Below are positions 3,040 through 25,003 of a stretch of DNA of 64,000 bases, in pieces. The notes under the pieces were generated by a model. The model was not told the origin of the DNA, ran no database searches, and saw only the letters and a program-made list of their open reading frames with translations. Position 1 is the stretch's first letter, and the number at the start of each line of letters is the position of its first letter. Made by a program: the position numbers and the translations under genes. The stretch comes from Burkholderiales bacterium (GTDB lineage Bacteria > Pseudomonadota > Gammaproteobacteria > Burkholderiales > Burkholderiaceae_C), in the NCBI GenBank assembly GCA_025350145.1, contig JANXYH010000104.1, forward strand, positions 1 through 64,000, in the 5' to 3' direction.

Positions 3040-4158
3040 ATGACCGTCAGCACCGAACCCGGCACCATGATCTTCGAGCAAATCGCCACCGGCGGCTGCC
3101 AGAGCTATCTGCTGGGCTGCGCCGATACCCGCCAGGCGGCGCTGATCGACCCCGAGGTCAGCCAGGTCGACCGCTACCTGGCGCTGGCCGCGCAGGACGG
3201 GTTGACGATCCGCTTCCTGATCGACAGCCACACCCATGCCGACCATTTCTCGGGCACCCAGGTGCTGGCCAAGCGTTTGCACGCCACCCGGGTGATGCAC
3301 CGCGCCGCACCCGCGCCGGGCCTGGACATGCGGGTCGATGACGGCGAATCGATCCTGCTGGGCAAGCTGCGGCTGCGGGTGCTGCACACCCCCGGCCATA
3401 CCGCCGATTCGATGTGTTTGCAGGTCGCCGACCGGGTCTTCACCGGTGACACCCTCCTGATCGGCGGCACCGGCCGCACCGATCTGCCCAGCGGCGACCC
3501 GGCCCAGCTCCACGCCAGCCTGTTCGGCAAACTGCTCAAGCAGGACCCGGCGCTGCTTGTCTATCCGGCACATGACTACAAGGGCCGCAGCCACTCGACC
3601 CTGGCCGACGAGATCGCCACCAACCCGCGCCTGCAGGTGCGGGCGCTGGAGGACTTCGTGGCGATGATGCGCAACCTCAACCTGTCGGCGCCAACCCACC
3701 TCACCGAGGCCCTGCGCACCAACATGAGCGGCGGCAAGACGGTGGCGCAGATGCTGGCCGAGGCCGAGTCGCAGGTGCCCTTCATGGCCATGACCGAGCT
3801 GCGCGACCGGCTTGCCAGCCTCAGCCCAAGCGGTACCGCTGGCACCGCTGGCAGCGCCGGCAGCGCCGACAACTGCGGCCGGCTGATCGTGCTCGACGTG
3901 CGCGAGCGCGACGCCTATGACGCCGGCCACATCCCCGGTGCGGTGCTGCTGCCACGCGGCCAACTGGAGCTGCGCGTCAACACCGTCCTGCCCGATCCGA
4001 CTGCGCGCATCGTCACCTGCTGCGATTTCGGCCGCATCTCGACCCTGGCCGCCGCCACCCTGCACGAGATGGGTTTTGCCCGGGCGGTGGCGCTGGACGG
4101 CGGGATGAAGGCCTGGGCCGCAGCCGGGCTGCCGCTGGAGCTGGCGGCGGTGGGCTGA
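3040..4158 (+). CDS. Persulfide dioxygenase (ETHE1-like) fused to a rhodanese domain
   Basis: Residues 1-250 are a metallo-beta-lactamase fold of the ETHE1 type. Iron ligands are visible in HTHADHFSG, in TPGHTADS and in TGDTLLIGGTGRTDL, with a late PAHDYKG histidine. ETHE1 proteins oxidise glutathione persulfide to sulfite. After a low-complexity linker (GTAGTAGSAGSAD) comes a C-terminal rhodanese domain (about 280-372) with DVRERDAYDAGHIPGA and an active-site loop CDFGRIS, so the catalytic cysteine is present. Such fusions couple persulfide oxidation to sulfur transfer between thiosulfate and glutathione. The gene starts 36 bases after pfp with GGAG upstream. Together with the sox genes at 13 kb it suggests active inorganic sulfur metabolism. 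Confidence 0.88.
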   Translation: MTVSTEPGTMIFEQIATGGCQSYLLGCADTRQAALIDPEVSQVDRYLALAAQDGLTIRFLIDSHTHADHFSGTQVLAKRLHATRVMHRAAPAPGLDMRVDDGESILLGKLRLRVLHTPGHTADSMCLQVADRVFTGDTLLIGGTGRTDLPSGDPAQLHASLFGKLLKQDPALLVYPAHDYKGRSHSTLADEIATNPRLQVRALEDFVAMMRNLNLSAPTHLTEALRTNMSGGKTVAQMLAEAESQVPFMAMTELRDRLASLSPSGTAGTAGSAGSADNCGRLIVLDVRERDAYDAGHIPGAVLLPRGQLELRVNTVLPDPTARIVTCCDFGRISTLAAATLHEMGFARAVALDGGMKAWAAAGLPLELAAVG

Positions 4159-6736: not shown

Positions 6737-8500
6737 TCAAAGCCGGAAGGTCCGGGGGCGGCGGCCGTTCTGGCCGTCGAACTCGACCTGCAGGTCCCAG
6801 GCACCGTCGCCCTGCCGCTGCGGGAACAGTGCAGCAAAGCCGTCGCCACAGTCGGGGAACCAACTGCTGAGCTGGCAGTTGAATTGCCGCCCGCTGTCCG
6901 GGTCGCTGAAGTCGAAGCTTTCTGAGCCGGCAAAGTCGTCGGCCAGGGCGTTGGCAAACGGGTAGGGCGCGTACAGCGCCGAGCTGTGGACCGAGTGCAG
7001 GGTGACCACCTTTTGCGGCTCCGACGGGCAGCTCAGACGGACGGTAGCGACGCAGGGGATGTGCTCGTCGCCCGAGAGGAACACGACCGGTGCGGCGGCG
7101 TCGTACACCCAGGCCAGCAGGGCGTGCAGCGAGGCCGGGTAGCCGAACCATTCGTCCAACTGCAGAGCCAGGCTGGGTTGGTCGGCCAGCCCCAGCCGGC
7201 GTGGCAGGACCATCGCGCCCGAGACCACGAAGGCCGGCGGGCTGTCGGCCCGGCGCCCGCCAATCCAGGCCTGCAAGGCGCCGCGCTGGGCCGGGCCGAT
7301 GATCTGGGCGTCGCGCCAGTTGCCGATGTCGCGCAGCCCGCGGTCGCTGCGGGTGTCGGCCAGGAAGAAGTCAAAGCCGCCCAGCCTGCGCTGCTCGAAC
7401 AGCGCGGCACCGGGCAGCGGCAGTGGCGGTGGTGACGATGGTGCAGGCCACATCCGGCGCTGGCGGCTCAGGTACCGGGCCTTGCCTTCGGCCAGCAGCG
7501 CCGCATTGGCGGCTTGCCCGGGTGCCGTCGCCGGCATCGGCTCCCAGTTGTCGACGGCCTCGTGGTCGTCCATCAGCGGCAACACCGGCCGGTTGGCGGT
7601 GTTCAGGCGGTTCATGCCGGGGTGCTCGGCCATGCGCGCATAGGCAAAGCTGAAGCGGTCGAGCAACTTGGCAGCGTCGAACAGGCCGGCGCTGGCGTCG
7701 ACGTAGACCTGGTCGCCGGCCAGCAGGGTGAAGGCCAGTTCGGGTTGGCTGCGCAGGCGCTGGGCCAGTCGCCACAGCGATTGCCCGGCCGGGCCCAGAT
7801 CGCTGGCGTCCAGGTCCCAGGGCTGGTTGCGCCCGGCGCCGTCGAGCATGCCCGCCGGGTACTGGCAACTGGCCAGGCAGAAGCCGGCGGCCCAGTCGGG
7901 TGCGGCGGCTGCCGCTGCCGTCGCCCGGGCCAGACTGGGCAAGGCCGGCGTGGCGGCCACCGGGCTGGGCACGGTGCCATGGCCCAGCGCGGCCAGCGGC
8001 AAACGCTGCAGGGCGCGCCGGACCTGGGCAAAGGCCACGCCGGGATCGGTGCAGGGGTCGCCAACGGGCACGTCGGCCGACGCCAGCCGCGCGCGGCCGG
8101 GGTTGAATTGCTCGACCCGGCGCAGCCCGAAATCGCCGTCGCCTATGCCCTCAATTTGGTCGAAGAACAGCAGCAGCATGGCGAACGGCGCTGCGCTTTG
8201 GGGCCAGGGCAGGTCGATCTCCACGGTCGGCGGAAAGTCCTGGCCCGGTGCCGGCAATGGCTCGGCCCGGGCGACCAGGTGGGCGGCGTTGGGCTGCGGG
8301 ATGGGCTGACCCTGCGGATCCGCCAGGCACCAGCGCTGGCCGGCCAGCGCCACCGGCACCAGGATCGCGCAGGGCGGCGCGCCGTTGGCGTCCTCGAACG
8401 CCACCACGCAGCGCAGGCGGCCGGCACTGACCTGGGTCGGCACCGCAAAGGACGTCGGTGGCAGGGCTTTGCGGCAGGGCATGCGCTTGTCCTCGGTCAT
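6737..8500 (-). CDS. PhoD-like phosphodiesterase/phosphatase family protein
   Basis: Metal-binding signatures of the PhoD-like metallophosphoesterase fold are spread over the C-terminal two-thirds: FCLASCQYP, LLAGDQVYVD, LPLMDDHEAVDNW, FFLADTRSDR and FLSGDEHIPC. The first 200 residues lack recognisable motifs and no signal peptide is seen (MTEDKRMPC start), so it may act in the cytoplasm, unlike exported PhoD. Its ATG overlaps the TGA of the upstream GMC-hydrolase gene (ATGA, 8497-8500), so translation is coupled and the pair probably share a pathway. The substrate cannot be inferred. It converges with the histidine kinase, 21 bases apart. Confidence 0.8.
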   Translation of the reverse strand: MTEDKRMPCRKALPPTSFAVPTQVSAGRLRCVVAFEDANGAPPCAILVPVALAGQRWCLADPQGQPIPQPNAAHLVARAEPLPAPGQDFPPTVEIDLPWPQSAAPFAMLLLFFDQIEGIGDGDFGLRRVEQFNPGRARLASADVPVGDPCTDPGVAFAQVRRALQRLPLAALGHGTVPSPVAATPALPSLARATAAAAAAPDWAAGFCLASCQYPAGMLDGAGRNQPWDLDASDLGPAGQSLWRLAQRLRSQPELAFTLLAGDQVYVDASAGLFDAAKLLDRFSFAYARMAEHPGMNRLNTANRPVLPLMDDHEAVDNWEPMPATAPGQAANAALLAEGKARYLSRQRRMWPAPSSPPPLPLPGAALFEQRRLGGFDFFLADTRSDRGLRDIGNWRDAQIIGPAQRGALQAWIGGRRADSPPAFVVSGAMVLPRRLGLADQPSLALQLDEWFGYPASLHALLAWVYDAAAPVVFLSGDEHIPCVATVRLSCPSEPQKVVTLHSVHSSALYAPYPFANALADDFAGSESFDFSDPDSGRQFNCQLSSWFPDCGDGFAALFPQRQGDGAWDLQVEFDGQNGRRPRTFRL

Positions 8501-11500
8501 TGCAGGAACTCGGCGATCAAGGCATAGGTCTGGTCGGCGCCTCGGCCGATCAGGCTGTCCTGGTGGCCGACCTGGGCCAGCCGCAGCGAGCGGCCCTTCA
8601 GGCCCGAGGCCTGCAGTCGATCAAAAAGCAGCCCCCGGGTGGCGTAGTCGACCAGGCCGTTTCGGTCGGCGTGCAGGCACAGCAGTTCGCAGCCTTTGAG
8701 CCGATCCAGATGGGCGGCGATGAAGCCGCCCCGGCCCTGGCGGTCAGTGACCAGCCCGGTGCGGGCGAAGGCGATCACCTGGGCGGTGGTGGACAGGTTG
8801 GATGGCCCGAAGAAATCGTCGATGGCGTTGAGCACCGGCTCGTCCATGTTGACCAGGTCGAAGGTGATGCCGTAGAGCGCGTCCATGCGGTGCCGGGCGG
8901 CGGTCCAGGTCGTTTTCTTCCACGGTGGCCAGAACGGGTTCTCGCGCCAGAAGTCGCGGCGCGGGTAGGGCACGACGCAGAGCAGGCGGTCAAGCATGTC
9001 GTCGGCCGGGCTGGGCCGGCGCGGCGAGAACTCGAAGCGGCCGAGCTTGAAATACTGGCGCAGCCAACTGACGACAAAGGCCCGGGCGGTGTTCGACGGC
9101 GCCATCCGCAGCACCGGCCCGACCTGCGACAGCACCAGGCGGCGGATGCGGCCAGGCAGTTTTGCGCGCAGCTCAGGGTAGAGGTCGAACGGCGGCGTGT
9201 CCGCCGGCAGCGTCTGCCCGCCCCAGTCGCCCAGCAGCCCCAGGCTGAGCATGGCCGCGCCCATGCAGTGGGCGACCAGGTCGAGCTGCTGCGCACCGGT
9301 CTTGGTCAGCACATGGTCGACCGCCAGCGGTATGTCCTGGCAGCCCATCTGCTCGAACGACCAGGGCCGCTGTGCGCCCGGCATGCCGGCACTGCTGCGC
9401 AGGTCCAGCACCCAGACGTCGCGGCCGAGGGCGCAGAGCGTGCCTGCCAGGCCGCCGCCGGGCAGCAGCGGGTGGGCAAAGGTGGTGCCGCTGGCGCTGT
9501 AGCCATGGACCATCAGCACCGGCGGCGCGGCGCTGACCCGGCCGTCGGCATCGGCCTGGGCCGGGTAGCGCGACAGCCGCAGCAGCGCGCCCTCGGCCAT
9601 CTGCAGTTCAACCACGGTCGGCGTGACGCTGCCGCGCGGCGTGGGCAGCACGCCCGGCAGGCGCCGGTTTTCGGCGTCGATGTGCGGCGACGGCGCGGCG
9701 GCACTGGCACTGGCACTGGCACGGTTCGGCCGGTCGGGCTGGCGCAGGGTCCAGGCATGCAGCGGCAGCAGCACCCGGCCCAGGTACAGGCCCAGGGTCG
9801 CCAGGTCGGCCAGCGCGGTCGGCTGGTCCTGCTGCGACGCCACCCGCAGCAGCGGGATGCCGACCCTGGCGAAATGCGCCAGGTCGACACTCAGTGGCCC
9901 GGTCAGGCGCAGGCCCGCAGCGCCGGAACTGTGGATCACCTTGGCGATGCTGAGCTGGTTGATCGGGCTGGCCGCCAGGTTGTAGGTCAGGGTCTTGACG
10001 GCGCGGATCTCGGCCCCTTGCCAGGCCTGGACGCGGCCGCTGCCCGGGCCCTGCAACAAACTGCCGGCGGTGGGTTGGCCGAGCTTGAACTGGTACGCGA
10101 TCAGGCGTTTGTCACCCGCCCAGGAGGCCAGGCGCAATCCGGCCAATAGCGCCCTCAGCAGGCCTGGGCCTGTCGATCTGGCCTGGACGGCGTCCAGCAG
10201 CCGGCCGACGAAGTCGCGCAGGCCTCGGTTGAGGATGTAGGCCACGACCGCGCGCAGGATCCGGCAGCCGACCCAGGAAGGCGCGTGGTGCAGCAGGTCC
10301 ATCTGCCCGGACAGCGGCGCCTCCAGCAGCAGGCGCCGTTCCTGCGGCGGGGCCGACGCTGGCCCCGCCGGGCCGGTCGATTCGTCGTCGGGCGCGGCAA
10401 CGGCCGGGGCGTACAAGCGCAGCCGGCTCTGCAGCGGGTTGAACGCGACCCGGCGCGATCCGTTCGGCGTGGTGAGTTCGGCCGTGGTCACCGGTTGCGA
10501 CCAGAGCTGCAATTCGATCTCGCAGCGTTGGCCATCGAAGTCGGCCTGGCCGCGCATCTGTTCGGCAAACTGCAGCAGCGTCGGTGCCGCCGGGCTGGGG
10601 TCCGGCAGGGTGCGAAAGGCGGGCCTGGGCTGAGGCGGCCTGGCCTCGCCAGCACCACGCATCAAGCCCCAGCCACCCTGGGCCGGCGGCGTGTCGCGCA
10701 GGTGCTGCAGCGCACGCTGGGCCAGCATGGCGATGGTCAACGAGGGGTTGATGCCCAGCGAGGTCGGCACCACCGAGCCGTCCAGCACCAGCAGGTCGGG
10801 GTACACGCTGTCACGGCCGGCGCCGTCAAAGACCTGGCCGAGGTGGTTGACCACGCCTTCTTCGACCGTGTCGGCCATCACGCAGCCGCCCAGCGGGTGG
10901 ACGGTGACCATGGCGCCACGGACCTGGCCGAGGATGCTCTCGAGCGCCTGCGGCAGCGGCTGCCAGGCCGGGTTGGCCAGGACGGTGGCCTGGGGGTGGC
11001 CGCGCTGCGCAAGCTGCTTCAGGCCTTGCTGGTAGGCGTCCAGTCGCGGCTCGCCCGGCAGGGTCGGCCATTCGACACCCAGGGTGCCGATTTCGGCGTC
11101 CGTGCCGGGCAGGCGCAGCCGGCCGTCGGCGCTGTCGCGGCCGATCAGCGCCACGGTCATGCTGGCCTCGATCTTGTGCGGGTCGATCGCCGCGTCATCG
11201 GCCTGGCCCGCGCCGCGCCAGGACCCGTCGAAGCGGGTCATGGCGTCCAGTCGCGTGCCCAGGCTGACGGTCTCCTCGAACAACCGGCGCAGCGGCCCAG
11301 GAACGCCCAGATCCTGGATCACCATCGCCGGCAGCGATGTGGCCAGGCCGGGGCCGCGCAGATCGACCATGCGGGTGATGGTCGGGCCGACCTGGCGCTG
11401 GTCGTAGGGCTGGGCCTCGTCGGCCACGGCCTTGGCAGGTGCCGCCATGCCGTAGACGGCGTAGATGTTGTCGCCGTTGGCCGAGAAGCGCTTGCCGATC

Positions 11501-12468
11501 CGCGCCGAGGTCTTGAGCCCGCCCTTGCTGGCGCGCAGCAGCAACTCGGTCGAGCCCATGGTGCCGGCGGCGACGATCAGCCTGGCGCTGCGGATCAGGT
11601 ACGCATCGCCCTGGCGCTGGGCCAGGTGCGGATGGGTGTGCAGCACCTCCAGGCACCAGCCGCCTTCAGGCAGCCTCTTGAAGCTGCGCACGGTGGCGCC
11701 AGTGGCGATGTGCAGGCAGCCGGCGGCGTGGCGCGCGCTGGCCCGGGCCAGCAGGGTCACGTCCAGCGACAGCTTGGCGCGAAAGTTGCACCCGGTGGCG
11801 CAGTCGCCGCAGTGGTTGCATGCCTCGATGCCGCGCGCGGCATCGGCGCGGTCGGCCACGATGATCTGCACGACGACCGGCGCCGTGCCGCCGCTCAGGC
11901 CCTGCATCGCCGCCGTGCGGGCGGGGATGTTGGGCGCGGCAACCGCCTCCAGCGCCCGCTGGGCCTGGGCAAGCTGCGCCGGCAGCGTGGCGTCATGGCG
12001 AATCGCCTCGGGCCAGGCCGGCTCCTGGAACACCGCCGCCAGGGGCGCAGCGGTGACGCCAGCGTTGATCAGCGAGCCCCCGCCCAGGCCGTTGCCCAGC
12101 AGCATGCCGACATCGGGGCCGATGCGCAGGTCGAACAGCCCGTCGGCCTGGCCACGCACCTTCGGGTCGCCGGCGGTGCTGTAGCGGACATGGCCGGCCA
12201 GGTCGGCCATGCGCGTCGGGAAGGCGCCGGGCAGGTACTCGCTGCCGCGCTCGAACAGGGCGATGCGCAGTGGCCGGCCATCGGCGGCGGTGCAGCCCGC
12301 GAGTTCATGCAGGGCCATCGCTCCGCCATAGCCGCTGCCGACGATGGCGATGTCGAAGTGGTGGCCGGCCGCGTCGGCAGGCAAGCTGCCCTGGGCCAGC
12401 GCATCGGCAAGCTCGGTCAGATCGCGTCCCAGCCACTGTGTGGCCCGTGCTTGTCGTTGGGTCGACAT
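8497..12468 (-). CDS. GMC oxidoreductase fused to an alpha/beta hydrolase
   Basis: This is a 1323-residue multidomain protein. Residues about 1-570 are a glucose-methanol-choline flavoprotein like long-chain alcohol/cholesterol oxidases: FAD loop IVGSGYGG, LLGNGLGGGSLINAG, and the C-terminal HPLGGC and SLGINPSLTIA. It carries a cysteine cluster CNHCGDCATGC near residue 216 that could hold an iron-sulfur centre. A middle region (about 600-900) is unassigned. Residues about 950-1323 form an alpha/beta hydrolase (VLMVHGYSASG) with the nucleophile elbow VAHCMGAA, so cysteine sits where serine is usual. A late GHQD may give the catalytic histidine. Such a protein could oxidise and hydrolyse lipid or sterol-like esters. 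It has no signal peptide and is coupled to the PhoD-like gene. Confidence 0.85.
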   Translation of the reverse strand: MSTQRQARATQWLGRDLTELADALAQGSLPADAAGHHFDIAIVGSGYGGAMALHELAGCTAADGRPLRIALFERGSEYLPGAFPTRMADLAGHVRYSTAGDPKVRGQADGLFDLRIGPDVGMLLGNGLGGGSLINAGVTAAPLAAVFQEPAWPEAIRHDATLPAQLAQAQRALEAVAAPNIPARTAAMQGLSGGTAPVVVQIIVADRADAARGIEACNHCGDCATGCNFRAKLSLDVTLLARASARHAAGCLHIATGATVRSFKRLPEGGWCLEVLHTHPHLAQRQGDAYLIRSARLIVAAGTMGSTELLLRASKGGLKTSARIGKRFSANGDNIYAVYGMAAPAKAVADEAQPYDQRQVGPTITRMVDLRGPGLATSLPAMVIQDLGVPGPLRRLFEETVSLGTRLDAMTRFDGSWRGAGQADDAAIDPHKIEASMTVALIGRDSADGRLRLPGTDAEIGTLGVEWPTLPGEPRLDAYQQGLKQLAQRGHPQATVLANPAWQPLPQALESILGQVRGAMVTVHPLGGCVMADTVEEGVVNHLGQVFDGAGRDSVYPDLLVLDGSVVPTSLGINPSLTIAMLAQRALQHLRDTPPAQGGWGLMRGAGEARPPQPRPAFRTLPDPSPAAPTLLQFAEQMRGQADFDGQRCEIELQLWSQPVTTAELTTPNGSRRVAFNPLQSRLRLYAPAVAAPDDESTGPAGPASAPPQERRLLLEAPLSGQMDLLHHAPSWVGCRILRAVVAYILNRGLRDFVGRLLDAVQARSTGPGLLRALLAGLRLASWAGDKRLIAYQFKLGQPTAGSLLQGPGSGRVQAWQGAEIRAVKTLTYNLAASPINQLSIAKVIHSSGAAGLRLTGPLSVDLAHFARVGIPLLRVASQQDQPTALADLATLGLYLGRVLLPLHAWTLRQPDRPNRASASASAAAPSPHIDAENRRLPGVLPTPRGSVTPTVVELQMAEGALLRLSRYPAQADADGRVSAAPPVLMVHGYSASGTTFAHPLLPGGGLAGTLCALGRDVWVLDLRSSAGMPGAQRPWSFEQMGCQDIPLAVDHVLTKTGAQQLDLVAHCMGAAMLSLGLLGDWGGQTLPADTPPFDLYPELRAKLPGRIRRLVLSQVGPVLRMAPSNTARAFVVSWLRQYFKLGRFEFSPRRPSPADDMLDRLLCVVPYPRRDFWRENPFWPPWKKTTWTAARHRMDALYGITFDLVNMDEPVLNAIDDFFGPSNLSTTAQVIAFARTGLVTDRQGRGGFIAAHLDRLKGCELLCLHADRNGLVDYATRGLLFDRLQASGLKGRSLRLAQVGHQDSLIGRGADQTYALIAEFLQ

Positions 12469-12835: not shown

Positions 12836-13603
12836 TCAGGGTCGAACCGCTGGCGTCTCCACCGCCATGCCGGCGTCGCGCTGCGCCAGCCAGGCTTCTA
12901 GCCTCAGCCAGGGCTCAGCGTCGGCCGCCCAGGGCTCGGCCCGCACCCCGACCACGCAGGCGCGCAGCCGGCGTTGCAGGCTGCCCAGGGCCTGCCATTC
13001 GAGCCGGTAGCTGGGGTAGCCGGTGGCGCGGCCCTGGGGGATGGTCGCGCCGGCCAACTTGGCGCCGGCATGCCGGTCATGGCAATGGCTGCAGGCCAGG
13101 TTGAGCTGGCCCAGGCGCTGCTGCCACAGCGCCTGGCCCTGCGCCCGCAGCGGCGCCAGGCGCGGATCGGCAGGCGGCGCCATCGGCAGGCCACGCGACT
13201 GCAGGCCGACAAACGCCAGCAGTGCGAGTTGCTCGGCATGGTCGGCGGGCAGCGGCAGGGCCTGCTGGTGGCGGACGCGGCAGGCGTTGACGCGCCCGGC
13301 CAGGTTCAGTGGCGCAGCGCTGGCCTCGTCCCAGGCCGGATAGCGGGCGGCCACGCCGGCCATGCTGCGGGCGGCGTCGCCATGGCAATCGGCGCAGCGC
13401 TTGCCGGTCTTGCCGGCGGCGGCCTGCCACAGCGCCGCACCATCTTGGACGAACAGAAAGGCCGGGTTCTGGCTGTCATGGCGTTGCAGCGCCTGCAAGG
13501 CCGGGCTCATGTCGTCCAGGCCCGAGCGGCGGGTGTCGCTGCCCTCAGCGGCGCTGGCGCTGCTGCCCAGGGCAAGCCACAGCAGCCAGACTGCCAACCT
13601 CAT
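12836..13603 (-). CDS. soxA: Sulfur oxidation c-type cytochrome SoxA
   Basis: SoxA with SoxX forms the periplasmic heterodimer that attaches thiosulfate to the SoxY cysteine oxidatively. Seen here are a signal peptide (MRLAVWLLWLALGSSASAAEG), a first heme site CADCH near residue 68, a second CSHCH near residue 170, and the hallmark C-terminal CVVGVRAEPW, whose cysteine is the modified heme ligand and active site. The track starts 18 codons earlier. I choose the ATG at 13603 because it overlaps the soxZ stop as ATGA and leads directly into the signal peptide. The usual downstream partner soxB is missing from this locus. Confidence 0.92.
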   Translation of the reverse strand: MRLAVWLLWLALGSSASAAEGSDTRRSGLDDMSPALQALQRHDSQNPAFLFVQDGAALWQAAAGKTGKRCADCHGDAARSMAGVAARYPAWDEASAAPLNLAGRVNACRVRHQQALPLPADHAEQLALLAFVGLQSRGLPMAPPADPRLAPLRAQGQALWQQRLGQLNLACSHCHDRHAGAKLAGATIPQGRATGYPSYRLEWQALGSLQRRLRACVVGVRAEPWAADAEPWLRLEAWLAQRDAGMAVETPAVRP

Positions 13604-13938
13604 GAGGTAACGAACGGCCGGGTTTCGCGGTGGCTGAAGCCGTTGTCGCCGGTCCATTCGAAGCGCAGCGTGCCGGGCTTGTCGCTACGCAGCCAGAACG
13701 CCACATAGGGGTTGGCCGAGATCGCCGGGTACAGGTCGGTGGCCAGCACCAGCCGCTCGTCCAGCCAGCATTCGAAGCGGGTGACGATGCTGCGCGGCAC
13801 GACATTGCCGTAGCCGTCGGGGCGCAGGCCGTTTTCCATCGCGTGGCCCAGCGTGACTCGGATCTCGACCGGCGCGCCGGGGCCGGCCGGCGTGCCGATG
13901 TGGATCAGGGTGCGGACTTTGGCGGGGCTGTCGGCCAT
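13600..13938 (-). CDS. soxZ: Thiosulfate oxidation carrier complex protein SoxZ
   Basis: This is the 112-residue subunit that partners SoxY as the sulfur-substrate carrier in the periplasm. It has the SoxZ pattern: RTLIHIGTP near the start, VEIRVTLGHAMENGLR, then an immunoglobulin-like beta sheet ending FSHRETRPFVTS. As is normal for SoxZ it has no signal peptide and is thought to be co-exported with SoxY. The ORF track merges it into a longer frame from 14337. The ATG at 13938, 8 bases after soxY, is the natural start. It is coupled to soxA by an ATGA overlap. Confidence 0.92.
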   Translation of the reverse strand: MADSPAKVRTLIHIGTPAGPGAPVEIRVTLGHAMENGLRPDGYGNVVPRSIVTRFECWLDERLVLATDLYPAISANPYVAFWLRSDKPGTLRFEWTGDNGFSHRETRPFVTS

Positions 13939-13946
13939 GCTGCTTG

Positions 13947-14417
13947 CTAGCCTTCGACGCAGGCGGCCAGGGTGACGATCACGTTGACGTAGCTGGCCCA
14001 CTGGCTGCCGTCGGACAGCCGCGCCAGCGCCACCAGTTGCTGCGATGTCGCCAGCCGAATCCGGGTCGATGCCTCGGCCCTGGCCGCAGCCGGGCCGAAG
14101 TAAAAGCGCACCACCTCGCGCTGCGGGTTGCGCTCGTTGTAGACGGCGATCTCCTGGACATGGTCGGTGGCGGTCATGGGGCTGTCGCAGCGCACCGTGA
14201 TCGGCACTGCGTTGCCGTTCTCGACCAGCGGCGCGATCTCGAGCTCGACCCGGCCCTCGTGCAGCGGCAAGTCGCCGGCCCATTGGCGGATGATGCCGGC
14301 GAAGGTGACGGTGGTGACGGCGCTGGCCGGCAGGCATTGCAGCGCCAGCGCGCCGCCGGCTGCCGCCATCAGCCTGCGCCTGGGCAAACCAAGGTGTACG
14401 GGAATGTCGGCGTTCAT
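13947..14417 (-). CDS. soxY: Thiosulfate oxidation carrier protein SoxY with an atypical C-terminus
   Basis: SoxY carries the sulfur substrate on a cysteine at the end of a flexible C-terminal arm, normally GGCGG-stop. The N-terminus has a twin-arginine signal (PRRRLMAAAGGALALQ), and the body matches SoxY (GDLPLHEGRVELEIAPLVENG; YNERNPQREVVRFYFGP). The last residues read VTLAACVEG-stop, so the cysteine is kept but the flanking glycines are gone and three residues, not two, follow it. A frameshift is unlikely because the frame ends in a clean TAG just before soxZ. It lies 7 bases after soxX. It may be a functional variant or a specialised carrier. Confidence 0.88.
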   Translation of the reverse strand: MNADIPVHLGLPRRRLMAAAGGALALQCLPASAVTTVTFAGIIRQWAGDLPLHEGRVELEIAPLVENGNAVPITVRCDSPMTATDHVQEIAVYNERNPQREVVRFYFGPAAARAEASTRIRLATSQQLVALARLSDGSQWASYVNVIVTLAACVEG

Positions 14418-14424
14418 CTGGCCC

Positions 14425-14805
14425 TCACTTCAGGCTGACCAGGTAGGCCACCACGTCGTCGATCTGGTGGGGCGTCAGCAGCGGCTTGCCGCGCAGCGCC
14501 GGGGCGACCTGGTTGAAGCCCTGGCTGCGGCCATAGCTGGGCATGACGGTGTCGGGGTTGAAGCGCTCCGGGTTGAGCAGGCGCTGGCGCAGCGCCTGGG
14601 CGCTGTGGCGGCTGCCGGCACCCGCCAGCGGCGGCGCCAGCGTGCCCTGCAGGCCGTCGGGCTGGCCGGGGATCGGGTGGCAGAGCAGGCACAGGCCTTG
14701 GCTGCGGCTGCTGACGATGCGCTCGCCGGCCCGGGCGTCGCCGGCTGCCGCCCAGCCCGGCAGGCAAAGGCTGGCCAGCAGCGCCGCGAGCCAGACCCGG
14801 TTCAC
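14425..14805 (-). CDS. soxX: Sulfur oxidation c-type cytochrome SoxX
   Basis: A 126-residue monoheme cytochrome that pairs with SoxA. It has a signal peptide (VNRVWLAALLASLCLPGWAAAG), heme site CLLCH near residue 38, and the SoxX pattern NPDTVMPSYG supplying a methionine ligand, then GKPLLTPHQIDDVVAYLVSL. The track shows only a long frame from 15672. The true start is the GTG at 14805, which overlaps the TGA of the molybdenum hydroxylase gene (GTGA). That overlap places soxX in the same transcript and couples its translation to the oxidoreductase. Confidence 0.9.
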   Translation of the reverse strand: MNRVWLAALLASLCLPGWAAAGDARAGERIVSSRSQGLCLLCHPIPGQPDGLQGTLAPPLAGAGSRHSAQALRQRLLNPERFNPDTVMPSYGRSQGFNQVAPALRGKPLLTPHQIDDVVAYLVSLK

Positions 14806-17063
14806 GCCCGTTTCAGGCTGTGCTGTGACAGCGGCAGCTCGCGGATGCGTTTGCCGGTGGCGGCAAAGATCGCGTTCAGCACCGCCGGCGCGGCCACCGC
14901 GATGGTCGGCTCGCCGACCCCGCCCCAGAACCCGCCCGAGGGCATGACCGCGGCCTCGACCTTGGGCATCTGCGCCATCAGCAAGGCCGGGTAGGTGTGG
15001 AAGTTGGTTTGCTCGAAGCGCCCGTCCTTCAGGGTGCAGGCCTCGAACAGCGCGCCCGACAGGCCGTAGGCGAAGCTGCCCTCGACCTGGGCGGCGATCT
15101 GCTGCGGGTTGACGGCGTGGCCCGAGTCGGTGGCGGCGACGATGCGGTGCACCCGCAAGTCGCCCGCCGGGCTGACCGAGACCTCGGCGCAGGCCGCGAC
15201 GAAGCTGCCAAAGCCGTGGATCGCGGCCAGGCCGCGGTGCACCGCCAGGCCATCGACCGGCTTGGCCGGCGTGCCCCAGCCGGCGTCGGCGGCGACCCGG
15301 TTGAGCACCGCCAGGTGTTTGGGCGCGCCACCCAGCATGGCGCGGCGAAAGGCCAGCGGATCTTGCCCGGCGGCGTGGGCCAGTTCGTCGATGAAGCACT
15401 CGACGTAGATCGCGTTGTGGTTGAGGTTGACGCCGCGCCAGAAGCCCGGCCGCACCGGCGGGTTGCGCATCGCATGGTCGATCAGCAGGTGCGGCACGCT
15501 GTAGCCAAAGGCGCCCTCGGGCCCGCCCGCGTTCAGGCCCTGGAAAGTGACCGGATCCTTGCCGTTTTGCAGCGCCGCCGGCAGCAGCCCGGCCAGGATC
15601 GACTGGCCCGAGATGCGCATGTGCAGTGCCTGCAGCTTGCCCTGGGCGTCCAGCCCGGCGCGCAGTTTGCATTGCGTGATCGGGTGGTAGAAGCCGTGCT
15701 GCATGTCCTCTTCACGGCTCCAGATCAGCTTGACCGGGATGCCGGGCAGCTCGCGGGCGATGGCCACCGCCTGGGTCACGTAGTCGGCGCTGCCGCGCCG
15801 GCCGAAACCGCCGCCGAGGTGGATCTTGTAAACCTCGCACTGCGCCGCCGGCAGGCCCGAGGCGGCGGTGGCGGCGGCAAACGCCGCCTCGCCGTTCTGC
15901 GTCGGGCACCAGACCTCGCAGCGCGCCGGCTTGTCGCCCGCCGCCGGGGTGAAGCGCGCGGTGGCGTTCATCACCTCCATGGTGGCGTGGTTCTGGTAGG
16001 GGTAGCTGTAGACCGCCTCGACCAGCTTGGCCGCACCGGCCAGGCCGGCCTTGGCGTCACCGGCGGAATTGCCGACGTAGGCCTCGGGCGCGTCCAGCCC
16101 GGACTTGAGCATGACCGCGATGTCGGCGCTGGAGAGCTTGGCGTTGGGCCCCTCGTTCCATTGCACCGGCAGCGCATCGATCGCCTTCTTCGCCCGGTAC
16201 CAGGTGTCGGCGACCACCGCCACCGCCGTGTCGCTGACCCGCAGCACCTTTTTGACGCCGGGCATGGCCATCACCGCGCCAGCCTCGAACGAGACCAGCG
16301 TGCCGCCGACCACCGGGCAATCGCGGATCGCGGCGTTGAGCAGGCCGGGCAGTTTCAGGTCCATGCCGTAGACCTGGCTGCCGTCGGTCTTGGCCACCGT
16401 GTCCAGCCGCTTGACCGGCTTGCCGGCGATCTTCCAGTCCTTGGGGTCTTTGAGCTTGATGTCGGTCGGCGGCGTGCGCTTGGCGGCGGCGGCGGCCATC
16501 TGGCCGTAGCTGGCGCGCTTGCCCGAGGCATGGCTGATGACGCCGGCCTCGACCTTGCATTCGGCCGGGCTGACGCCCCAGCTCTCGGCGGCGGCCTGCA
16601 CCAGCATGGTCTTGGCAGCGGCGCCGCCCTTGCGCACGTAGTCGTTGGACTCGCGGATGCCGCGGCTGCCGCCGGTCGAGAAATTGCCCCAGACCCGGTT
16701 GCGTGCGAGGTTCTGTCCCGGCGTCGGGTATTCGGTGGTGACGCGCGACCAGTCGCAGTCCAGCTCCTCGGCCACCAACTGCGCCAGGCCGGTCAGCGTG
16801 CCCTGGCCCATCTCGCTGCGCGCGATGCGGATCACCACCGTGTCGTCGGGGTGGATCATGACCCAGGCATTGACCTCGGGCTGGCTGCCCTGGGCCAGCG
16901 CCGGGGAGACAGCGGCGGGGATATGGAATCCCAGCACCAGGCCGCCGGCCGAGGCCGAGGCGCTGGCCAGAAAGTGCCGCCGCGAGGGCGAACCTGGGAC
17001 GGTGGCGGCGGTGGCGGTGGCGGTGGCGGCGGTGGTGGCGGTGGCGGTGGTGGCGGTGCGCAT
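14802..17063 (-). CDS. Molybdopterin-binding large subunit, isoquinoline 1-oxidoreductase type
   Basis: Large subunit of a xanthine-oxidase-family molybdenum hydroxylase that would oxidise an aldehyde or N-heterocycle with water. It has a Thr/Ala repeat leader, a twin-arginine signal (SRRHFLASASASAGG) for folded export, the Mo-cofactor region GGFGRRGSADYVTQ, and the C-terminal GGVGEPT with the catalytic glutamate. The length of 753 fits IorB proteins, which lack a separate FAD subunit. The start at 17063 has AAGGAG five bases upstream; earlier sequence in the ORF track is frame shadow over the small subunit. IorB-type enzymes usually pass electrons to a cytochrome c. Here the next gene is soxX. 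The substrate is unknown. Confidence 0.88.
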   Translation of the reverse strand: MRTATTATATTAATATATAATVPGSPSRRHFLASASASAGGLVLGFHIPAAVSPALAQGSQPEVNAWVMIHPDDTVVIRIARSEMGQGTLTGLAQLVAEELDCDWSRVTTEYPTPGQNLARNRVWGNFSTGGSRGIRESNDYVRKGGAAAKTMLVQAAAESWGVSPAECKVEAGVISHASGKRASYGQMAAAAAKRTPPTDIKLKDPKDWKIAGKPVKRLDTVAKTDGSQVYGMDLKLPGLLNAAIRDCPVVGGTLVSFEAGAVMAMPGVKKVLRVSDTAVAVVADTWYRAKKAIDALPVQWNEGPNAKLSSADIAVMLKSGLDAPEAYVGNSAGDAKAGLAGAAKLVEAVYSYPYQNHATMEVMNATARFTPAAGDKPARCEVWCPTQNGEAAFAAATAASGLPAAQCEVYKIHLGGGFGRRGSADYVTQAVAIARELPGIPVKLIWSREEDMQHGFYHPITQCKLRAGLDAQGKLQALHMRISGQSILAGLLPAALQNGKDPVTFQGLNAGGPEGAFGYSVPHLLIDHAMRNPPVRPGFWRGVNLNHNAIYVECFIDELAHAAGQDPLAFRRAMLGGAPKHLAVLNRVAADAGWGTPAKPVDGLAVHRGLAAIHGFGSFVAACAEVSVSPAGDLRVHRIVAATDSGHAVNPQQIAAQVEGSFAYGLSGALFEACTLKDGRFEQTNFHTYPALLMAQMPKVEAAVMPSGGFWGGVGEPTIAVAAPAVLNAIFAATGKRIRELPLSQHSLKRA
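17001..17058. repeat. GGTGGC-type microsatellite inside the signal peptide of the molybdenum hydroxylase
   Basis: About 58 bases of GGTGGC/GGC repeats on the plus strand encode the Thr/Ala run (TATTATATTAATAT) just after the start codon. Units are 3 and 6 bases, so length changes keep the frame. Confidence 0.75.
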
Positions 17064-17086: not shown

Positions 17087-17584
17087 TCAGGCCTGGCCGG
17101 CGGGTGGCATGCCGTGCTCGTTGGCGGCATTGCGCTGGCCGGTGGCGGCCAGGTGGATCGCCGCGCGAACCCGGTTGTAGGTGCCGCAGCGGCAGATGTT
17201 GGTGATGCTGTCGTTGATGTCGGCGTCGCTGGGCCGGGGCTTGTTCTTCAGCAGCGCGGCGGCGGCCATCAACATGCCCGACTGACAGAAACCACACTGC
17301 GGCACGTCGAGCTCGGTCCAGGCCTTTTGCAGCGGGTGGCTGGCGTCGGGCGCCAGGCCCTCTATCGTCACCACCTTGTCGCTGCTGTCCAGGCTGGACA
17401 CCGGCCGCACGCAGGAGCGGGTGGCCACACCGTTGATGTGCACGGTGCAGGCGCCGCATTGGGCGATGCCGCAGCCGTACTTGGTGCCGGTCAGGCCGAG
17501 TTGCTCGCGCAACACCCACAGCAGCGGGGTTTCGGGCTCGGCGTCATGGGTGCGGACGCTGCCGTTGACGTTCAGGGTGGCCAT
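17087..17584 (-). CDS. (2Fe-2S)-binding small subunit, isoquinoline 1-oxidoreductase type
   Basis: Partner of the next gene. A plant-type ferredoxin cluster ([21 protein letters not shown]) comes first, then the second cluster CGFCQSGM and [13 protein letters not shown] of the helical domain, as in all small subunits of the xanthine oxidase family. It relays electrons from the Mo site. The protein has no signal of its own and is expected to be exported with the Tat-targeted large subunit. I choose the ATG at 17584 ([14 protein letters not shown]) with GGAGAG upstream, not the earlier start in the track. The gap to the large subunit is 23 bases. It is probably first in an operon of six or seven genes. 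Confidence 0.9.
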
Positions 17585-22045: not shown

Positions 22046-22645
22046 TTACTTCAGCGTCGGCTTGTAGGCCTCGACCAGCACCGCGTCGAGCCGGTAGCCG
22101 CTGGCGCCCATCGGCGAATCGCTGCGGTTGACGCGCAGCGTGCCGCTGACCCAGACCGTGTCCATGCTGTGAAAGCCCGCCGCCGGCTTGGCCGGAACGA
22201 CCAGGACGATCTGGTTCGAGGGCGGCGGCGGGGTGTGGATGCAGGCGCCGAAGTAGGGCACCAGCAGGAACTCCTTCAGCCCGGCCTTGACCTCGTCCAG
22301 CGGCACGATGTAGCCCGGCAGCTTGATCCGGTTGCCGTCCAGCGCAGCCTCGGTCGGCGCCTTGTCCCAGGACTCGCGCAGCGTCTGCATCATCGCCATG
22401 GCCTTGGGGTCGCCGTCCATCAGGTTGGCCGGGTTCAGCCCCTGCTCCTTCAGGCCCTGCATCGGGTCCCAGCCCTTGGGCACCAGCGCTTCCCAGCGCA
22501 ACTCGGCATAGGCGCCGGCTGCGGCCGGCTTGGGCAGGGGCTGGGCGCGCAGGGCAACAGGCCAGGCCGCGACGGCGGCAAGGCCGCGCAGCAGCAGGCG
22601 GCGACGGGCCGCAATGGCAGGGGCGGGTGGCTCGGCAAATGGCAT
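22046..22645 (-). CDS. Exported DUF3299 protein
   Basis: A 199-residue protein with an Arg-rich signal (ARRRLLLRGLAAVAAWPVALRAQ), possibly Tat type. The body matches DUF3299: LRWEALVPKGWDP, IKLPGYIVPLDEVK, FLLVPYFGACIHTPPPPSNQIV, and a C-terminal DSPMGASGYRLDA. Members are usually encoded beside an FtsX-type ABC permease and its ATPase, as here (14-base gap), and have been linked to envelope lipoprotein or metal handling. The function is not established. The ATG at 22645 is chosen; the longer frame in the track overlaps the permease. Confidence 0.8.
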   Translation of the reverse strand: MPFAEPPAPAIAARRRLLLRGLAAVAAWPVALRAQPLPKPAAAGAYAELRWEALVPKGWDPMQGLKEQGLNPANLMDGDPKAMAMMQTLRESWDKAPTEAALDGNRIKLPGYIVPLDEVKAGLKEFLLVPYFGACIHTPPPPSNQIVLVVPAKPAAGFHSMDTVWVSGTLRVNRSDSPMGASGYRLDAVLVEAYKPTLK

Positions 22646-22659
22646 GGTTGATTCCGGTT

Positions 22660-23919
22660 TCAGGTGCGCGGCGTGAGGCCGTCGGCCAGCGCCAGCCGGT
22701 AGGCACGCCAGCCCGGCAGCAGGCTGGCCAGCAGGCCGGCGACCAGCACGGCGGCCAGCCAGCGCCATTCTGCGTCGCCGGGCCAATCGCCTCGCAGTTG
22801 GATGCCCCAGCGCGCCTGCACCCAGGGCCCGGCCAGGGCAACGACCAGGCCACAGGCCAGGCAGCCAATGGCCACGCCGGCCAGGGTGAGCAGCGCGCCC
22901 TCGGCGCTCAGCAGCAGCAGCACCTGGCGCGGCCCGGCGCCGAGCGCGCGCAGGATCGCCAGCTCGCGGCGGCGCTCGTTCAGCCCGGCCAGGATCACCG
23001 CCACCAGGCCCATCAGGCTGACCACCCCGACCAGCGCGCTGATCGCCTGCAGGGCACGCTCGGCGGCGCCGACGATGCGCCACAACTCGTCCAGCACCAC
23101 CCCGGGCAGGATGGCCTGCAGCGGCTCGGGGGCGAAGGCGGCGACATCGCGCTGCAGCGCAAACACGGCGGCACGGTTCTTCAGCCCGATCAGCGCGGCG
23201 TCGATGCGCCGCGGCGTGTCGGCGTCGGGGCCATTGCCTCCCGAGCCGCGCACATGCGCGCCGCTGAGCCAGTCGCGGTGGACCGCCTGCAGCGCCAGCA
23301 GCCCGACATGGACCGTGCGGTCGACCGGCGTGGCAGTGGGCGCGAGGATGCCGACGACGCGAAACGGCTGCTCGTCGTGGTCGTTGTCCTGCAATGCGCC
23401 GTCGCCATGGCTGAGCACGATCGCCTGGCCCAGCGCATAGCCCAGCGTGCGCGCCACGTCGGCACCCAGCACCGCCTCGCGGTCGGCAGCCAGGCCGCTG
23501 AAGGCGCGGCCGCTGGCCATGACCAGGGGCTGGCCGTCGCCGTAGCGAAAGCGCGCAAAGTACGCGCCGCTGGTGCCAACCACGGCCTGGCCGCGGTGGC
23601 TGTCGCCGAGCGCCAGCGGAACCATCCAGGCCACGGCGCGGTGCTCGGCAATGGCCTGGGCGCTGGCATAGCCGATGGTGTTGCTGCCGCTGCCGATGTG
23701 GAACACCGCCGACAGCAGCAATTGCAGCGGCCCGCCGCGCGCGCCAATCACCAGGTCGGTGCCCGAAACGGCCTGCGAAAAGCTGTCGCGCAGGTCGCGC
23801 TGGACGCGCGCGATGCCCAGCAGCAGCAAGGTCGACAGGGCGATCGACGCGACCACCATGGCGAGCACGAAGCGCCGGTTCCAGGCGCTTTGTGCGGCTA
23901 ATCTGAGCAAGTGGGTCAT
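22660..23919 (-). CDS. FtsX/MacB-type ABC transporter permease
   Basis: One N-terminal helix (FVLAMVVASIALSTLLLLGI), a large periplasmic domain, then three C-terminal helices around ALQAISALVGVVSLMGLVAVI, with ERRRELAILRALGAGPRQVL, the coupling region typical of FtsX-like permeases. Length 419 matches LolCE/MacB relatives that use mechanotransmission rather than classic import. The start is at MTHLLRL (23919). Its ATPase is the minus-strand gene at 24305, separated by a plus-strand DUF427 gene. The DUF3299 gene follows. Confidence 0.85.
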   Translation of the reverse strand: MTHLLRLAAQSAWNRRFVLAMVVASIALSTLLLLGIARVQRDLRDSFSQAVSGTDLVIGARGGPLQLLLSAVFHIGSGSNTIGYASAQAIAEHRAVAWMVPLALGDSHRGQAVVGTSGAYFARFRYGDGQPLVMASGRAFSGLAADREAVLGADVARTLGYALGQAIVLSHGDGALQDNDHDEQPFRVVGILAPTATPVDRTVHVGLLALQAVHRDWLSGAHVRGSGGNGPDADTPRRIDAALIGLKNRAAVFALQRDVAAFAPEPLQAILPGVVLDELWRIVGAAERALQAISALVGVVSLMGLVAVILAGLNERRRELAILRALGAGPRQVLLLLSAEGALLTLAGVAIGCLACGLVVALAGPWVQARWGIQLRGDWPGDAEWRWLAAVLVAGLLASLLPGWRAYRLALADGLTPRT

Positions 23920-24011
23920 GGCGGCGGGCAGCTTAGCAGCGCCGCCTTGCAGCACCGGCCGTGGCGGCTAGGATCGCGGCTTTGCGCCAGAGTGCGCGGG
24001 AGCCAAGCGGC

Positions 24012-24293
24012 ATGAAAGCGATCTGGAACGGCGTGGTGATCGCCGAGAGCAACGACACCGTGGTGGTCGAGGGCAACCACTACTTCCCCGAGAGCACGCT
24101 GGACAAGCGCTACACCGCCTTCAGCAACCACCGCACGAGCTGCCACTGGAAGGGCCAGGCGCACTACCACTCGCTGCTGGTCAAGGGCGAGATGAACCCC
24201 GACGCGGTCTGGTACTACCCCGAGCCCAGCGAGGCCGCAGCCAACATCAAAGGCCGGGTGGCGTTCTGGAAGGGCGTGCAGGTGCTCGACTGA
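24012..24293 (+). CDS. DUF427 domain protein
   Basis: A 93-residue single-domain protein with the DUF427 pattern: MKAIWNGVVIAES, VEGNHYFPESTL, HRTSCHWKGQAHYHSL and WYYPEPSEAAANIKGRVAFWKGV. It is cytoplasmic and of unknown biochemical role. The ATG at 24012 follows GGGAG. It sits on the plus strand between two halves of a minus-strand ABC transporter, with only 11 bases to the ATPase stop. Confidence 0.88.
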   Translation: MKAIWNGVVIAESNDTVVVEGNHYFPESTLDKRYTAFSNHRTSCHWKGQAHYHSLLVKGEMNPDAVWYYPEPSEAAANIKGRVAFWKGVQVLD

Positions 24294-24304
24294 AGCGCCC
24301 ACGC

Positions 24305-25003
24305 TCAGGCCGCAACGGTGGCGCGGTTGATGCTGGGCAGATCCAGCACCCGCGCAAAGCGTGTGGCCAGGCGGCTGTCGTGGCTGACGAACAGCAGCGC
24401 GCTGCCGACCCTGGCGCATTCGCCCTGCAGCAGGTCCATGAACGATTCGCGCAAGGGCTCGTCGAGCGCCGAACTGGGCTCGTCGGCGATCACCACCGCC
24501 GGTGCGCCGACCAGCGCCCGCGCCGCCGCGACGCGCTGCTGCTGGCCGACCGAGAGCTCGGCCGCAGGCCGCCGCCAGCAACTGCGCGGCAGTCCGGCAC
24601 GCGCCAGCAGTGACTCGGCCGCGTCCGGCCCGGCGCGTGCCGCGCGCTGGGCCGAAAGGCGGCACGGCAGGCGCACGTTGTCCAGCACCGAGAGGTAGGG
24701 CAGCAGGTTGAACTGCTGGAAGATGTAGCCCAGGTGGGCGGCGCGCCAGCGGTCACGCGCCCCGGCCGCCAGCGCGGCCCAGTCCTGGCCCAGCAAGGCG
24801 GCACTGCCGGCGCGGGCCGGCAGCACCCCGGCGGCCAGCGACAGCAAGGTGCTTTTGCCGCAGCCGCTGGGGCCGCGCAGGAACAGGCTCTCACCCGGCG
24901 CCAACACCAGCTCGGCATCCAGCGCCAGGCAATCGTCGGCCGCGCCGGGCCAGGCGAAGCACAGCTTGGAGAGCGACAGGGCGCGCGGTGCGGCGGGTGT
25001 CAT
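24305..25003 (-). CDS. LolD/MacB-type ABC transporter ATPase
   Basis: A 232-residue ATPase with Walker A GPSGCGKST, Q-loop FQQFNLLPYLSVLDNV, signature LSVGQQQRVAAARAL, Walker B VVIADEPSSALDE and H-loop FVSHDS. It matches ATPases that pair with FtsX-like permeases (22660-23919). The signature reads LSVGQ in place of LSGGQ, which occurs in this group. The start is ATG 25003. Co-transcription with the permease must cross an opposite-strand gene. Confidence 0.88.
   Translation of the reverse strand: MTPAAPRALSLSKLCFAWPGAADDCLALDAELVLAPGESLFLRGPSGCGKSTLLSLAAGVLPARAGSAALLGQDWAALAAGARDRWRAAHLGYIFQQFNLLPYLSVLDNVRLPCRLSAQRAARAGPDAAESLLARAGLPRSCWRRPAAELSVGQQQRVAAARALVGAPAVVIADEPSSALDEPLRESFMDLLQGECARVGSALLFVSHDSRLATRFARVLDLPSINRATVAA

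Follow-up and report, generated by a model that had tools for sequence, protein, structure and literature searches.

The window, a stretch of 64,000 nucleotides from a genome of the order Burkholderiales, carries six tightly packed genes on its minus strand in the order iorA-iorB-soxX-soxY-soxZ-soxA. The first gene (17087-17584) encodes an iorA-like [2Fe-2S] subunit of an XDH-family molybdenum hydroxylase with the Pfam domains Fer2 and Fer2_2, and the second (14802-17063) an iorB-like molybdopterin subunit with the Pfam domain MoCoBD and the Tat motif SRRHFL. The soxX gene (14425-14805), coding for a monohaem cytochrome c, scored 70.9 bits against TIGR04485 (cut-off 61). It is followed by the soxY-like carrier gene (13947-14417) and by a divergent soxZ (13600-13938), which matched Pfam SoxZ with 74 bits but remained with 62.8 bits below the cut-off of TIGR04490 (76). 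The last gene (12836-13603) encodes a dihaem SoxA cytochrome and reached 189.6 bits against TIGR04484 (cut-off 110). Two start/stop overlaps are present, as the GTG start of soxX overlaps the iorB stop and the soxA start overlaps the soxZ stop, and soxZ starts at 13938, 8 bases past the stop of the soxY-like gene. Ahead of the IorB Tat motif, a low-complexity Thr-Ala repeat (17000-17063, minus strand) was observed, possibly reflecting uncertainty in the assembly or in the start site.

The carrier shows a SoxY fold, a Tat-type signal (RRR) and a carrier cysteine, Cys153. Reading the minus strand between 13947 and 13970 yielded TLAACVEG followed by a TAG stop codon (13947-13949), with the cysteine codon at 13959-13961; an arm LAACVEG (13950-13970) thus takes the place of GGCGG. 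The original prediction that the reading frame ends in AACVEG with the cysteine retained was clearly confirmed. Its two further statements on the tail held in part: an acidic residue does follow the cysteine, but the glutamate is located at position +2 with valine directly after the cysteine, and the GGCGG motif is absent although one terminal glycine remains.

Profile searches with hmmscan assigned the carrier to the NCBIfam family TIGR04487, "SoxY-related AACIE arm protein" (SoxY_para_1), with 183.5 bits over its full length compared to a cut-off of 172. LAACVEG agrees with the C-terminal AAC-[IVL]-E arm of this family, and RefSeq and GenBank records name homologues in the same operon accordingly. 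Except for valine instead of isoleucine after the cysteine, no difference to the family was found, and the sequence marks the carrier as a typical representative of a curated, uncharacterised family; no function was found for TIGR04487, the family model naming the arm only. With the canonical SoxY of SoxXABYZ systems (TIGR04488; PDB 2oxg, 4uwq) the carrier shares the fold, the C-terminal carrier cysteine, the Tat signal and the partners SoxZ and SoxXA, but it scored only 76.2 bits (cut-off 125), lacks the GGCGG arm and a SoxB encoded at the locus, and is accompanied by IorAB. The fused SoxYZ-like carrier associated with quinoprotein dehydrogenases (TIGR04557; P. putida PP_2677) likewise stands beside a periplasmic dehydrogenase (PMC12997753). 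It differs, however, as soxY and soxZ are separate genes in the window, the neighbouring enzyme is a molybdenum instead of a PQQ enzyme, and the score was 49.8 bits, below the cut-off of 140.

To place the arm in a wider context, 80 related loci were collected by scanning genome contigs, with one of the two search patterns containing the arm itself; as a recheck for this bias, a full-length model was applied to 200 genomes of the same order (Burkholderiales-type) and 399 of the same phylum, and 76 flanking regions were examined. The six genes occur in the order found in the window and on one strand in every one of the 80 loci not cut by a contig end; iorA itself was detected in 69 of the 80, most of the others being cut by contig ends. 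Conservation of the operon extends over Alpha- and Betaproteobacteria and a few other groups. Apart from a flavocytochrome c sulfide dehydrogenase (FCSD; Pfam FCSD domains, PDB 5n1t with 2e-149), encoded within or adjoining the operon in 29 of the 80 loci, no neighbour is widely conserved. In alphaproteobacteria the FCSD gene is found between iorB and soxX, and in Massilia and Noviherbaspirillum it follows soxA; a RefSeq plasmid carries the same operon together with FCSD, and the genome studied here encodes its FCSD on a contig other than that of the operon. The frequency of this neighbour ties the operon to sulfane sulfur.

All 80 tails share the acidic arm. In the alignment, LAAC or LSAC precedes [IVLT]-E, with alanine at -1 and glutamate at +2 in 80/80 and alanine at -2 in 79/80. 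The underlying codons vary synonymously (four for alanine, GAA and GAG for glutamate, five for leucine), and all three stop codons are used. Constant residues in spite of changing codons argue for purifying selection on the arm. Two loci with a full operon (L162 and L163) carry AAC[LV]IG, indicating that the acidic residue is usual but not essential. An AlphaFold model based on 41 homologues predicted a confident SoxY fold (pLDDT 87) with residues 139-149 as the last strand, whereas the chain from residue 150 on, including LAACVEG, was modelled as an unstructured tail of low confidence; the model thereby suggests that an arm is still present. Foldseek returned the SoxYZ structure 2oxg as the best PDB match, and identity to the Paracoccus SoxYZ structures was approximately 37% over the SoxY chain. 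The carrier arm is changed and not lost: instead of the loss of the carrier tail that had been assumed, a conserved alternative arm was found, already named by the NCBI curators. A degenerate SoxY, or an indel or sequencing error that destroyed GGCGG, is ruled out for practical purposes, since one and the same arm is present in 80 independent loci under purifying selection and in a family already named by curators; nothing was found in favour of such an event beyond the remark from which the analysis started.

The two cytochromes encoded by the operon have the sequence features of a SoxXA. Both SoxA and SoxX scored above the respective cut-offs, CxxCH occurs twice in SoxA (79/79 loci) and is present in SoxX in 78/79, and the catalytic cysteine ligand of SoxA is retained: the invariant Cys216 aligns with the catalytic cysteine region of SoxA 1h31, and R212 and R214 are invariant as well. 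Retention of SoxXA implies that the arm must still enter SoxXA. The Fer2 and MoCoBD domains and the invariant Mo-site residue Glu713 characterise IorAB as an XDH-family molybdenum hydroxylase. Compared to curated NCBIfam equivalogs (xanthine dehydrogenase, CODH, 4-hydroxybenzoyl-CoA reductase and others), none of the cut-offs was passed, the best score being 154.7 with a cut-off of 780; the closest solved relative of IorB is the large subunit of an aldehyde dehydrogenase, 8gy3 (8gy3_C, 2e-81).

In a phylogenetic tree, the SoxYZ-linked IorBs formed a clade with a support of 100, to which 15 stand-alone paralogues did not belong. Exceptions were the SoxYZ-linked IorB of L146, which was placed among the stand-alone proteins, and two IorBs in the Sox clade with no SoxYZ nearby, one from L222 and one from contig C64 of the own genome (L226, 9163-11349), the latter with 56% identity to the IorB of the window. 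The residues peculiar to this clade include a tryptophan five residues before Glu713 (W708), present in 117/117, whereas 14 of the 15 stand-alone proteins have proline. At a further locus (L227, 8226-12075), iorAB genes of the same clade are followed by two genes for YeeE/YedE-like sulfur transporters, one with a weak TsuA match (27.8 bits). Two candidate roles of IorB residues were rejected. Pairing of the acidic tail with one arginine or lysine specific to SoxXA-linked IorB found no compelling partner; K287 and K440 are among the residues that differ between the types, and K440 is arginine in the other type. A persulfide relay over IorB cysteines would not be general, because C404 occurs in the SoxXA-linked type only, with valine in its place in the iorAB-soxYZ type.

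The absence of soxB had been predicted as well, and this proved true for the locus but not for the genome. None of the 80 related loci contains soxB, and the window operon does not encode a thiosulfate-oxidising Sox system in the sense of soxB together with SoxXA and SoxYZ. Contig C23 of the same genome, however, carries soxB (835 bits) with its own soxX, soxA and soxZ, by which a genome-wide loss of soxB is ruled out, and a SoxY with GGCGG is encoded on contig C47. Two carrier systems thus share one periplasm. The canonical soxY stands alone, adjoining gatB (L003, 9636-10106), and soxZ-A-X-B are located on another contig (L006, 8984-12717). Most of the sampled genomes with a strict AACxE arm, including the own genome, contain soxB elsewhere; the baseline in the order sample was 97 of 200 genomes. 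No soxB above the cut-off was detected in five genomes with verified SACLD-type operons, representing two genera (G005, G012, G060, G140 and G181), and in one with an LAACLEE arm and partly examined flanks (G169), all drafts of 96-99% completeness, which could hide a soxB.

The relation between tail class and partner genes was tallied for 156 loci. Carriers with GGCGG arms (25 loci) are accompanied by soxB in 22/25 and by iorB in 0/25. For [ASL]C-x-[E/D] arms (107 loci), iorB was found in 102, both soxX and soxA in 103 and soxB within the locus in none. Ten loci with xxCG arms adjoining iorAB contain neither soxXA nor soxB, and GGCAG- or SGCGM-type arms occur with FCSD alone. The latter include S. 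meliloti pSymA (L235, 5851-8292), L143, L145 and L181-L192, in which soxYZ and FCSD are present and SoxXA and SoxB are not nearby. Four-gene operons iorA-iorB-soxY-soxZ without SoxXA were found in L119-L128 and L153, with arms of the type xxCG or GGCNP, and the existence of these cytochrome-free relatives argues for IorAB and SoxYZ as the core pair. Their carriers represent a second, apparently unnamed carrier type. In one of these loci (L124, 344-4909), genes resembling AioA of arsenite oxidase as well as ArsR and ArsC were noticed by eye directly upstream of the operon.

Fisher tests of tail class against partners gave extreme values, but they ignore ancestry. In a SoxY tree calculated with the tail columns left out, the carriers linked to iorAB were all placed on one side, at a support of 94 (not starred), with a single change of the acidic arm. 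As the arm arose about once, the link between tail and partners reflects shared ancestry and not repeated co-evolution, for which the tree holds too few independent changes. The expectation that a changed tail brings changed partners therefore stands only in part: tail class follows iorB versus soxB, but SoxXA is kept with its catalytic cysteine, so that one canonical docking partner is the same. "Changed tail, changed partners" is a description of clades and is not proven by repeated evolution.

Based on these sequence comparisons, we suggest, with a probability of about one half, that the carrier is a dedicated SoxY paralogue in which the arm was altered from GGCGG to AAC[IVL]E and which may act in a periplasmic module of IorAB and SoxXYZA, its Cys153 being loaded by SoxXA and serving IorAB separately from thiosulfate Sox. 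SoxXA would oxidatively link a reduced sulfur compound to Cys153, as in canonical Sox, and the loaded arm would dock with the Tat-exported molybdenum hydroxylase IorAB rather than with SoxB or SoxCD. IorAB would then oxidise the tethered cargo, with the cytochromes carrying the electrons away, and the two alanines and the acidic residues might set the docking specificity, thereby separating the two carrier pools of one periplasm. This proposal is based on the scores above the TIGR04487 cut-off and below those for true SoxY and SoxZ, the fixed six-gene order, the soxB-free loci, the invariant arm, the active sites of SoxXA and IorB with their residues intact, the clade of SoxYZ-linked IorBs, the cytochrome-free relatives, the frequent FCSD and the coexistence with canonical SoxY and SoxB in one genome. 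Arguing against it are the arms of L162 and L163 without glutamate, the approximately single evolutionary event behind the link between tail and partners, and the C64 IorB without SoxYZ. To our knowledge, no XDH-family enzyme uses a sulfur substrate that is tethered to a protein or purely inorganic, which also counts against it, as does the finding that free aldehydes or aldoses are the substrates of the IorAB-like enzymes known so far (PMC6365646). For the SoxYZ-like carrier beside PQQ dehydrogenases, the passages of PMC12997753 examined give no settled role. In a broader form, which we put forward tentatively, a widespread periplasmic system would contain a molybdenum hydroxylase acting on, or being re-sulfurated by, cargo of the SoxYZ arm loaded by SoxXA. 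The arms would separate the pools, with GGCGG directed to SoxB, AACxE to IorAB and SoxXA, xxCG to IorAB alone and GGCAG to FCSD alone.

The main rival to a substrate-carrying arm is repair of the molybdenum site by sulfur delivery. XDH-family enzymes need a terminal sulfido ligand on molybdenum, and SoxYZ might obtain sulfane sulfur via SoxXA or FCSD and pass it on to the Mo=S site in the exported IorAB, where the cofactor would otherwise be irreparable, so that the arm would be a sulfur donor instead of a substrate carrier. The constancy of iorAB and soxYZ with variable SoxXA and FCSD is what would be expected if the latter were mere sulfur loaders. However, sulfuration of molybdenum normally takes place in the cytoplasm and precedes Tat export. 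In the ped cluster, SoxYZ-like carriers also stand beside PQQ alcohol dehydrogenases (PMC12997753), in agreement with such a maturation function. Stand-alone periplasmic IorAB enzymes function without SoxYZ nearby (PMC6365646), and we consider this explanation rather unlikely.

Still less probable is that IorAB oxidises an ordinary aldehyde-like substrate with SoxXA as cytochrome electron acceptor, SoxYZ being accessory or merely trapped in the operon. The relationship to the aldehyde dehydrogenase 8gy3 would agree with this, and an IorAB-like periplasmic deoxyribose dehydrogenase of the same subunit composition, likewise an XDH-family molybdenum enzyme with a Tat signal, has a cytochrome c that matters for the same growth phenotype (PMC6365646). 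The window operon differs from that system in containing SoxYZ and SoxXA where the latter has a dedicated cytochrome, and its IorB belongs to the clade apart from stand-alone IorBs, with W708 and not proline before the Mo-site glutamate. Against this explanation, SoxYZ is present in every locus with an invariant cysteine arm, relatives retain SoxYZ and lack SoxXA and not the other way round, and SoxA has kept its catalytic cysteine. About as improbable, and by our judgement the least probable of these three, is that the operon represents a specialised branch in the oxidation of inorganic thiosulfate or sulfide, with IorAB in place of SoxCD and a SoxB encoded elsewhere that would release the sulfate. 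The association with SoxXA and FCSD and the presence of soxB in the own and most sampled strict-AACxE genomes are in accordance with it, but the five SACLD-type genomes and G169 yielded no soxB above the cut-off at 96-99% completeness, and the glycines found together with SoxB throughout the sample are missing from the arm.

The name of the carrier family is already known, and the operon appears to be functionally undescribed: no paper on the operon or its function was found by gene and family names in the open-access literature. The operon falls outside the textbook Sox pathway, and if the carrier indeed serves IorAB, counting SoxAXYZ genes as thiosulfate oxidation over-calls that trait. The tail classes provide a one-line sequence rule to guess which enzyme a SoxYZ serves; they also offer a case in which partner specificity, encoded in approximately five residues, can be tested.

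Further genes in the surroundings of the operon were noted. Downstream of soxA, a protein of 1323 residues (8497-12468, minus strand) combines a cholesterol-oxidase-like GMC domain with a long C-terminal part containing a hydrolase-like motif, the latter recognised by eye. A trio of genes for an ABC ATPase, a permease and a small secreted protein (22046-25003, minus strand) is also located near the iorAB-soxYZ operon of L124 (13282-15967). At approximately 9 kb from the operon, a second sulfur-related gene (3040-4158, plus strand) encodes a fusion of a metallo-beta-lactamase fold and a rhodanese domain, resembling persulfide dioxygenase-rhodanese fusions.
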